Below, in pieces: positions 54,679-58,113 of a DNA stretch of 64,000 nt. The position numbers and the translations under genes are program-made. The first letter of the stretch is position 1; every line of letters starts with the position of its first letter. A model generated the notes under the pieces. That model did not search any database. It worked only from the letters and a program-made list of their open reading frames with translations, and was not told the DNA's origin. The stretch is from Pseudomonadota bacterium (GTDB taxonomy: Bacteria > Pseudomonadota > Gammaproteobacteria > Burkholderiales > Rhodocyclaceae): positions 1 through 64,000 of the forward strand of contig JAGTRW010000027.1 in the NCBI GenBank assembly GCA_018262095.1, read 5' to 3'.

Positions 54679-57600
54679 CTATTGACCAATGACAGCGTTG
54701 GCTGTCGGCTGATTGATCAGGCTGTAACCCTGAATATTGCGGCTCAGAACGCTCAGCGGACTCGAACCGATGCGCGAGAAACCGGAAAGTTCAAGCTGCA
54801 GGAAAAATCCCGTCGAAGTCGTCGCTTCGGTCAGCGCGATGCGCTGGACGACGCCGCGAACGAGCCAGCAACCGCCATTGTATTCCAGGCCGCCGACCGC
54901 CTCGATCATCCGCCCACTGGTGGTCGTCGTCGAGACGTTGCTGGCGTCATCCTTGAACGAGTAGTTGATGCGGCCAACGCCATACCAGCCGCCGCCCAGC
55001 GGCCACTGCCCGGAGAAGTCGACCTGGTCGATCGGCGCGCTCGAATCGCGGTTGTAGCGGTAGGCGGCGTTGAGCACCTTGCCCGGCTCGGGCTGATAAC
55101 GCGTGCCGATCGAAAAACGATCGACCTGCCGGTCGGCGCCGTTGTATTGTATCGCAGTATCGGCATAGACCCTGGGCAAGACCTGACCGCTGAACGCGGC
55201 GAGCCAGGCGGATTTCTCCCATTCGCCGGTGGCCAGCGTACCGCCGGGCAGCAGCACCTTGTTCTGCTCGAAATAGTAACGCTGACCGAACATCGCGCGC
55301 ATGATCTCGTTGCCGGTATCGGGCTCGAGCAGGCGGGTCGTCGCCGCCGCCGTGAGCTGGTTGGCGTTGCTGACGCGGTCCCAACTGGAAAACTGGTTCT
55401 CGGAGAAAATCGTCGCAAAATTGAAGTCGGCAAGGCCCGTATCGAAAACCGGGATCTGGCTCTGGTCCTTGTACGGCACGTTGAGGTAGTAAAGCCGCGG
55501 CTCGAGCGTCTGCGTGTAATCGCGACCAAACCAGTTGCTTGAGCGCTCAAAGGTCATTCCCGAATCGATGCTGACGATCGGCAGCGTGCGGCTGATCGAA
55601 CTGGGGATGGTCGCTGCCTGATCGGTAAGCGCGTAATTGGTGACATTGACGCCGACCTTGGGCGTCACGTACCAGCCCGGTGTCACGTAAGGCAGTGCGA
55701 GCTGCGGATAAGCCACAGTGCGTTGTCCGTTCGGATAGGGATCGCCGTTGGCCAGCGTTAACGCAGCGCCATTGTACGTTTGCTCGGGCTTGGTGAAATT
55801 GGTGTACTGCCCAAGGAAGGTCGCATCGGCACCCCAGATATCGTATTTTCGCGCGTTCAACGAGATCTGCGGCAGCATCCGGTACGGATTGACATTCACT
55901 GTCGACGAATCGGGCTGCAGCGTCTGGTACGACAGGAAATTGACGTTCGCGTCCCACCACCCGGCGCTGTAAGCCAAGCTGGCCTGTTGCGTAAGATTGA
56001 CCTGCGAGGTACTGGCAATGCTGCTCGACAGATCGGTGTAATAGGTGTCGTCGGACACCTTGGTGTAGTTGATCGACCCGGAAAAACCGTTGGCCGTCGT
56101 CTGCGTATGCAGTATCGAGACAGCATAGCGATTGTCGCCGTTCTGCAGTTTGTCGTTGGGCAGGACTTCGAGGCCCAGCGTCGACGTGTACGAACCGCCG
56201 AACGCCGTATTGAGATAGCGCGCCTCGCCGCTGAGCAGTATGCCGCGCTTGGTGAGCTCGCGCGGCGTAATCGTCGCGTCCATATTGGGCGCGATATTCC
56301 AATAGTAAGGCAGCGCGAACATGACGCCATTATTGGTGCTGGTCCCGAAGCTCGGCGCCAGGAAACCCGATTTGCGTTCGTTGTTGAGCGAGAACGACAT
56401 CCACGGCGAATAGAGGATCGGCACATCCTTGAAATAGAGGGTGCCGTCGCTGCCGTCTGCGACTTCGCGGTCGTAGTCGAGCTTGAGGTCGGTGGTCTTG
56501 AGATACCAGTCGTCGTTTCCCGGCGCGCAGGTGGTGTAGGTCGAGTTGCTCATGCGGTACTGGTTCTCGCCCTCGAAATCGAGACGATCGGCGTCGCCAC
56601 GCCCCTCGGTCATCCCCTTGGGCATACCGGTCGTATCAATCGACGTCTGGCCGGCGGCGATATTGAGGACAGTCGGCGAGGCGAAGCCGGAGTTCCACAA
56701 CGACTTGTCGGCGCGCAGTTTTTCCGAAGATTCCGCGGCATAGGCCTTGTCGGCGGCGGCCTGGCTGCCGGCTTGCGGTTGTCGCTTGATGGTGTAGGAA
56801 GGTTGCTCGAAGTAGCCGACCTGGTCTTCGAGTTTAAGTCGCATCTTCGGGCCGGTCATCAGGTCGGCGCCCTGTTCGAGACGAACGTTACCCTCAGCCT
56901 CCATCTCGTCGTCGATCGGCCAGTAGGTCAAGCGATCGGCATTGAGGACGGTACCGATCTTGCGCAACTCGGCATCGCCCTCGGCGATGAACTCACGATC
57001 GACATCGCCGCCCATTCGTAGCGCGCTGATAAACGTGGGACGTGGCACCGCACTGTCTTTCGGCGGCATCACCATGGCTTTCGCGCTGCGCAGGGCGAGC
57101 GGCGGCTGCGCATCGGGAACAGCGTCCGCGTCGCGCGAAGCGGCGGCCGGCAGCTGCTGAGCAACGGTTTGCGCGGGCGCGCCGGGGCCAGCGGCAATCC
57201 CCCCCCCCGGCGCCGTGCCCGGACCGGCTCCCAGCGCCTGGGCGGAACCGGTCTCCAGCGCCGGGCCGTAGGGTACGCGCTGCGCCAGCGGCGTCGCCGG
57301 GACGGGATTGGCGATTTCGATCGGCGCCGGACGCGCCGGCGTGCCGACGGCTTCTCCGGTCTTGCCCAACTCCCATTTGGCCCAGAAGAAGAGGACGTTG
57401 CCGGCATCACCCGACGGCGGAACGTACGTCCCTTCCAAACTGAAGTTCTTGTACGACACCGACGCCATCGGCAAGATGACCGGGAAGGGAAAATAGTTGA
57501 TGGTGTCCGAGCGCATCATCAGGCCGCCCATATAGCCCAGGCCGACGCGAACATCTTGGGCCGGGCGCCAGATCGCTTTCCAACTGTAACCCGCGGTATA

Positions 57601-58113
57601 CGAGGGCTTGAAGTGCGAATCCTGGAAGGCCATCGCAAAGACGCCCTGCCAGTTGCCGTACTCGTTGTACAAGCCTTTGCCGACACCGAAACCCACCGGG
57701 TTTTCCTGATAGTCGGCAATTTGCTCCGCGGAATAGCTGCTGCGCGAGTGGTAGGTCTTGAACGGCAGATAGAATTCCCAGGCACCGTTGTCGTAGGCGT
57801 TGGCGACCGGATCCCATAAGCGTTGGTACCACGGCTTCTTGACACCCGACTTGGCGGTGCTCGGCGCGCTTGCCGCGGCTGGACCTGGCGCGCTACCGAC
57901 GACGACCGGACTCGGCGCTGCGGCGGTTTGCGGCGACAATGAAACGACGATCGGTGCAGCAACAGCAGTCCCGGCACTGGCGCTCGGCGCAACGACGACC
58001 GGCGAAACGGTGACCGCGACCGGCGCCGGTGTCGCCACGGGAACTGGCGCGACGGCGGGGCGCGCCAGCAGCGCCGGATCGACGCGCAAGGCCTGCATAG
58101 CGGAAGAAGTCAC
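54679..58113 (-). CDS. lptD: PagP-LptD fusion: lipid A palmitoyltransferase-like domain joined to LPS assembly protein
   Basis: A 1144-residue frame. About 95-250 is PagP-like: [18 protein letters not shown] with His122, [17 protein letters not shown] with Asp165 and Ser166, [16 protein letters not shown], and an aromatic end. These match the catalytic His, Asp and Ser of E. coli PagP. A Pro/Ala/Gly linker (about 251-360) contains a G10 run. The rest is LptD: an OstA-like N domain (about 370-450; [14 protein letters not shown]), a Cys in [10 protein letters not shown], the outer-membrane barrel, and a Cys in [13 protein letters not shown] 58113 is only the first usable start in this frame; the frame remains open upstream through an Ala-Gln repeat. 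The signal peptide is in another frame (58669), so the true protein probably needs a frame correction near 58250. Transcribed before surA and pdxA. Confidence 0.88.
57199..57208. repeat. Ten-base C/G homopolymer inside lptD
   Basis: Ten C on the + strand, ten G in the coding strand, encoding Gly-Gly-Gly in the linker between the PagP-like and LptD parts. Such runs are prone to slippage in vivo and to sequencing error. Confidence 0.9.

Follow-up and report, generated by a model that had tools for sequence, protein, structure and literature searches.

The window analysed here is a stretch of 64,000 nucleotides (positions 1 to 64,000 of contig JAGTRW010000027.1) from a bacterium of the Rhodocyclaceae. 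On its minus strand, at 54679 to 58113, lies an open frame of 1144 amino acids from a GTG in which a PagP domain is followed by LptD. The locus raises the question of whether a lipid A acyltransferase and the LPS translocon are really encoded as one chain and, if they are, where the enzyme part came from and what it would do in that position.

Domain organization of the fused frame

The initial annotation had claimed that this frame runs uninterrupted through PagP and then LptD, and the claim was borne out by Pfam, by NCBIfam and by comparison with structures in the PDB. The PagP domain (Pfam PF07017; 57376 to 57807, minus strand) was located at residues 103 to 246, with an E value of 1.9e-47, a score of 160.8 bits against a cut-off of 24, and coverage of model positions 2 to 144 of 144. 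The NCBIfam model for PagP, NF008271, gave 172.9 bits against a cut-off of 155. The LptD barrel domain (PF04453; 54985 to 56136, minus strand) was located at residues 660 to 1043 and matched the full model with an E value of 2.2e-99 and 333.8 bits (cut-off 22.4). By family profile, two complete barrel domains are present in one chain, and the genome holds a single PagP match and a single LptD match.

The N-terminal periplasmic, LptA-like domain of LptD (56473 to 56943, minus strand; residues 391 to 547) scored 19.8 bits with Pfam LptD_N, just below the cut-off of 20.4 bits; two relatives were over it (L031 with 24.4 bits and L032 with 27.5 bits). The cut-offs of two NCBIfam equivalog models for LptD were missed (NF002997, 368.8 of 683 bits, E 5.2e-110; NF003358, 325.4 of 944 bits, E 7.2e-97), and by these scores the window LptD is related to, yet outside, both equivalog groups. 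The LptD part has a Cys ahead of the barrel and another close to the barrel end (YTTC, GGCW).

In the PDB comparison the whole chain matched E. coli PagP 1mm4 over residues 102 to 248 (E 2.6e-29; 9e-31 with the PagP domain alone) and LptD 7omm over residues 512 to 1131 (E 1.7e-98). The PagP domain sequence aligned with 1mm4 and 3gp6, which are structures of an eight-stranded barrel with an N-terminal helix. An AlphaFold model of the PagP part had a mean pLDDT of 36.9 and, resting on an alignment of three sequences, is silent on the fold either way. The residues that had been proposed for the catalytic positions, His122 (57748 to 57750) and Asp165-Ser166 (57616 to 57621, both minus strand), aligned with His33 and Asp76-Ser77 of E. 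coli PagP, which we take to be the catalytic residues of that enzyme.

A linker of about 110 residues (57028 to 57366, minus strand) joins the two parts. It opens with GK...GTP and continues as a Pro/Ala-rich, weakly constrained sequence. Residues 250 to 370 were checked in the window sequence, and neither a stop nor a frame break was present.

Directly downstream of lptD is surA (53356 to 54675), followed by pdxA (52369 to 53352) and rsmA (51305 to 52084; Pfam RrnaAD), all on the minus strand. This lptD is the sole copy, and its order, lptD-surA-pdxA-rsmA, is the usual lptD neighbourhood. The divergent neighbour is an APH-family kinase gene on the plus strand (58786 to 59805), the first gene of a stretch that leads toward purH and purD. 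These two genes are on the same contig past the end of the window, at contig positions 67442-69025 and 69040-70287. On the strand opposite to lptD, the upstream gene order of the family is APH kinase, nucleotidyltransferase, aminopeptidase P, further genes, Dus, purH and purD.

Signal peptide and start of the gene

The GTG at 58113 is hardly credible as the true start; the PagP-LptD frame extends as far as 58323, and this GTG is its most upstream start codon. A signal peptide, recognised by eye at 58571 to 58669 (minus strand), forms the start of an ORF at 58669 to 57893, which is out of frame with PagP-LptD. The change of frame falls at or near a (GGCTCA)16 repeat (58154 to 58249, minus strand), 5' of PagP, which codes for Ala-Gln when read with PagP-LptD and for Gly-Ser when read with the signal peptide. 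Among the 14 fused genes described below, signal peptide, PagP and LptD stood in one frame in 11 (signal peptides again by eye). The remaining three comprise the window gene, G400, which is cut at a contig end, and G399, whose fusion is divided between the ends of two contigs, one of them carrying the greater part of PagP and LptD. Most such bacteria cannot live without LptD, and this genome has no second copy, which makes an error in the sequence close to the repeat likelier than a gene that is truly broken. Other tandem repeats were seen near the same region in relatives, namely QAT repeats in G425 and G400.

The motif LRVDP(T/A)LL stands right behind the signal peptide (58541 to 58564, minus strand), and a second copy, LRVDPALL (58066 to 58089, minus strand), lies upstream of PagP and is present too in LptDs without PagP. 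Many LptDs of the family, with or without PagP, carry up to three copies of LRVDPALLG(LPP) in their low-complexity N-terminal region. Long, Pro/Ala-rich N-termini are already present in the family LptDs without PagP, and these often include copies of the motif, one of them directly after the signal peptide. The Tyr-Leu-Pro of PagP lies 61 to 108 residues past the last detected copy (12 of the 14 fusions measured).

Distribution of the fusion

The same architecture was recovered in related genomes. The fusion was identified in a small set of environmental bacteria, 14 genomes from three genera of one family, namely in 10 of 28 genomes of the window genus, in three of three of a second genus (G477, G524 and G557) and in one of one of a third (G448). 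Within the window genus all ten PagP matches lay in the lptD frame, and no match to PagP outside lptD was found in those ten genomes. One LptD match was present in 25 of the 28 genomes and two contig-end pieces in one more; two genomes, both incomplete, gave no LptD match. PagP was absent from 16 of the 26 genus genomes having an LptD match (for two of the 16, G408 and G417, the contig does not reach the 5' part of lptD), and LptD therefore does not need PagP.

PagP was found in 51 of 395 genomes of the family, and the searches of the order, class and phylum gave 58 of 399, 15 of 369 and 25 of 398. Among the order, class and phylum genomes searched, which are samples of larger groups with unfetched loci judged by frame length alone, no PagP was found in an LptD-long frame except in the window genome. 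Five frames of 294 to 593 amino acids round PagP (L018, L019, L074, L111 and L113) were rejected as fusions; by eye, each is a pagP of ordinary length with the frame open upstream.

The frame change near the hexamer repeat 5' of PagP could be taken as a sign of an assembly or annotation artefact, such as a chimeric contig or a missed stop. This explanation was rejected by the occurrence of the fusion in 14 genomes. Two of these, G424 and G425, are four-contig assemblies in which the fused gene lies within contigs 0.86 and 2.08 million bases long. The low dN/dS and the empty purH-purD slot, both described below, also stand against it. The artefact is considered refuted, with a negligible residual likelihood, and at the level of sequence the PagP-LptD fusion is confirmed as real.

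Conservation of the PagP domain

The residues matching His33, Asp76 and Ser77 of E. coli PagP were invariant in all 14 fusions. Pro28, Pro50, Pro127 and Pro144, presumably the prolines of lateral access, were likewise present in 14 of 14, and the stand-alone PagPs vary at Pro28 (Pro in 35 of 54) and Pro50 (Pro in 27 of 54). Tyr147 was found in none of the 14 fusions and in none of the 54 stand-alone PagPs. The position of Gly88, which we assume to be the acyl-length ruler, is Gly in nine of the 14 fusions and Ser in the window, which suggests that the acyl chain moved by the fused PagP may not be palmitate. Where free PagP ends, the last strand carries Leu, Met or Phe in all 14 fusions (by eye). 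Compared with the window, four proteins of distant genera (L115-L118) were 60 to 63% identical in PagP and 53 to 57% in LptD.

Values of dN/dS were obtained by the Nei-Gojobori method for ten chosen pairs, in which dS was often high, so that the values are rough. They span 0.03-0.31 in PagP, 0.07-0.37 in the LptD barrel and 0.13-0.60 in the linker. PagP was below the LptD barrel in three of the ten pairs and slightly above it in seven, and in the G404-G399 pair the linker, at 0.13, was below PagP, at 0.19. These values support purifying selection on the PagP part, with a dN/dS about as low as that of LptD.

The linker ranges from 48 to 142 residues over the reference span. Its Pro/Ala-rich composition, this range of lengths and its mostly weak constraint would suit a precursor that is cut after export to give free PagP and free LptD. 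The start of the linker beside the barrel argues against such cleavage, since GK...GTP was kept in 12 of the 12 fusions shown, and in eight of these as the full GKxGEAxGTPA; we consider a cleaved precursor improbable. In the unfused LptD of G402 (L130) a linker wording of PYG...RDEEEVPDDLPALALR was seen which is much like the stretch behind PagP in the fused genes. This wording may be what remained after PagP was lost, or it may be the linker in its original form.

Phylogeny of the two parts

The 14 fused PagPs formed one clade with a support of 97/98 in a tree of 74 rows, and of 92/94 in a tree of 19 of those rows. This clade was nested in the stand-alone PagPs of the family and of three order-level kin. 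All 14 fused LptDs fell in one clade of 35 together with 21 unfused LptDs, both in a quick tree of 98 rows and in a careful tree of 45 rows. The LptD trees require five changes between the fused and the unfused state, and a single clade of fused LptDs was rejected (AU p 4.4e-9; 45 of the 98 rows). With the PagP domains in one clade and the LptDs not, the history indicated by the trees is one capture of PagP, then repeated losses. The base of the 35-member LptD clade is weakly fixed and one member within it, G452, keeps a free pagP in the old slot, which leaves several possible points for the move of pagP.

The two parts of the window gene have different nearest relatives. Its LptD grouped with that of G410 (100/99) and its PagP with those of G424, G405 and G399 (100/98), and a PagP clade of G000 with G410 was rejected (AU p 1.5e-4). 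This suggests that the gene is a mosaic (57364-57831 versus 54985-56136), formed by recombination inside lptD through an exchange within the gene.

Origin of the PagP domain and expression

In four of four unfused genomes examined at length (G452, G498, G527 and G432), pagP was located between purH and purD. Over all, stand-alone pagP adjoins purH and/or purD at 34 of 58 loci (31 of 55 genomes). The purH-purD placement of free pagP was also observed in several order-level kin (L231-L233 and L235; also L234:9443-12288 on contig C80, beyond the window). Both genes could be placed in 19 unfused genomes of the family; in 11 of these, pagP was found 8.8 to 11.8 kb from lptD, on its 5' side and on the other strand; in the rest it was far off on the same contig (three genomes) or on another contig (five). 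On this proximity of the two genes, a distant origin of the PagP part was rejected.

The purH-purD slot was without pagP in seven of seven fused genomes examined (G000, G404, G424, G425, G477, G524 and G557), with a gap of 14 to 93 bases in six of them and 1890 bases in G557. On the window contig purD begins 14 bases after purH. The slot was likewise empty in three PagP-less members of the genus (G401, G402 and G412); for another, G413, neither purH nor purD was found in the stretch fetched. The empty slot in the fused genomes, together with the free pagP in that slot in unfused kin, most likely reflects a transfer of pagP over about 10 kb, out of its place after purH and into the 5' region of lptD.

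An TGCTAAAAT-like element upstream of lptD was common to nine fused and five unfused genes looked at (by eye), two of the elements being near matches with one base changed. A simple pattern search for a sigma-E-like promoter upstream of 14 genes gave no match. The sharing of the element between fused and unfused lptD suggests that PagP expression here probably follows that of lptD. Such expression could be all that was gained, with an active PagP riding on lptD for a steady 1:1 expression and drawing no benefit from proximity to the LPS gate. The common upstream element would fit this, as would the long and variable linkers, the PagP-less majority in the genus and the possibility that the move out of the purH-purD slot was a chance local rearrangement. 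A gain in dosage alone leaves unexplained why a whole barrel sits inside LptD, where other genera of the family have a separate gene, and we regard it as unlikely.

Proposed function

The reading preferred here, to which we assign a probability of roughly 0.6, is that the sole LptD of this bacterium carries a PagP-type lipid A acyltransferase barrel within its long N-terminal region, and that LPS delivery and lipid A acylation would be coupled in this way. The order of the chain is signal peptide (in frame in the relatives), low-complexity segment, PagP, linker, LptD periplasmic domain and LptD barrel. The PagP part would most likely work as an acyltransferase that is anchored where LPS leaves.

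Both barrels would be folded into the outer membrane by BAM. A periplasmic linker from PagP to the LptD periplasmic domain would be possible, because PagP belongs to a family of eight-stranded barrels, a barrel with an even number of strands has both termini on the periplasmic side, and the PagP helix is on that side as well. PagP would then have its two ends on the same side as the periplasmic domain of LptD, and no membrane crossing would be needed. The periplasmic position of the helix is given in PMC2887491.

LptD delivers LPS to the outer leaflet. With one PagP tethered per LPS gate, the enzyme would stay close to that gate in a 1:1 ratio, with the lptD promoter driving its expression. 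It could then take an acyl chain from a phospholipid misplaced in the outer leaflet and transfer it to lipid A that has just arrived. According to PMC9403492, PagP takes an acyl chain from a glycerophospholipid, its acceptors are lipid A or PG, and its active site is reported at the outer leaflet. According to PMC7617971, it is unclear how PagP gets to enough LPS, given the low diffusivity of the outer membrane. The fusion would save PagP the search for its substrate where diffusion in the membrane is slow.

The same properties of the enzyme would allow another role at the gate, in which PagP mainly clears phospholipids that leak into the outer leaflet there, or makes acyl-PG, instead of generally acylating new lipid A. 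The phospholipid donor and the PG acceptor named in PMC9403492 favour it, as does the slow phospholipase activity of PagP without LPS described in PMC7617971. The sequence gives nothing to tell this role from lipid A acylation, and we hold the clearing role to be doubtful. For the coupling of delivery and acylation, the most specific form would be that the gate-borne enzyme acylates lipid A on exit, constitutively and not as a stress response, with BAM folding two unlike barrels, LptD among them, from a single chain; we put this form forward tentatively, at somewhat less than even odds. If it holds, acylation would be a constitutive step of LPS insertion.

The fusion joins the LPS translocon to a lipid A enzyme, each as a whole membrane-barrel domain, and it raises the question of how BAM handles an internal barrel end. 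It also provides a natural test of how PagP gets to enough LPS when outer-membrane proteins barely diffuse (PMC7617971). If the tethering is true, the fusion would be a natural solution to this access problem.

Comparison with known systems

Two outer-membrane barrels in one chain had been called very unusual in the initial annotation, which knew of no described case. The rarity stands. The second part does not, as two- and three-barrel fusions of outer-membrane porins, such as MnoP, are described in PMC4827864, where they are called rare and are placed mainly in alphaproteobacteria; one belongs to a protochlamydial family. Neither LptD nor PagP is named in the main text of that paper. In the open-access full-text journal papers searched, no title or abstract start describing a PagP-LptD protein was found. 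We rate the protein as one of known domains in a rare kind of architecture, the combination being new and functionally suggestive.

The PagP part resembles E. coli CrcA/PagP (1mm4, 1thq, 3gp6) in its whole domain, its His, Asp and Ser and its lateral-access prolines. It differs in being neither free nor at the C terminus of its chain, in having no other copy in the genome and in its variable acyl-ruler position. The LptD part resembles known LptD (PF04453; 7omm, 5iva, 4n4r) in the LptA-like domain, the barrel, the two Cys sites and the lptD-surA-pdxA-rsmA order. Unlike known LptD, it is preceded by about 330 to 640 residues, counted from the signal peptide, which include the whole PagP domain. 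With the MnoP-type fusions of PMC4827864 the protein shares more than one outer-membrane barrel per chain, although those join porin to porin and are mainly alphaproteobacterial.

A second PagP fusion was observed in family f20, where PagP was present in 40 of 67 genomes and all 41 matches were in frames of 380 to 552 amino acids, one with an internal stop. PagP was followed by OMP_b-brl in five of the five f20 proteins scanned (Pfam E 5.6e-12 to 3.6e-6; four of the five over the cut-off). Judged by frame length, all 41 PagP matches would share this separate two-barrel architecture. The proteins L105-L110, and also L229 and L230, are roughly 360 to 390 amino acids long, with PagP as the N-terminal half and OMP_b-brl as the second half. 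Like PagP-LptD, the f20 proteins L105-L110 have an N-terminal PagP and then a second barrel domain. Unlike it, their second barrel is small and OmpW/OmpA-like, and six PagPs of the f20 two-barrel proteins form a separate clade of their own. By this tree, PagP is a barrel that has been joined to a second one at least twice.
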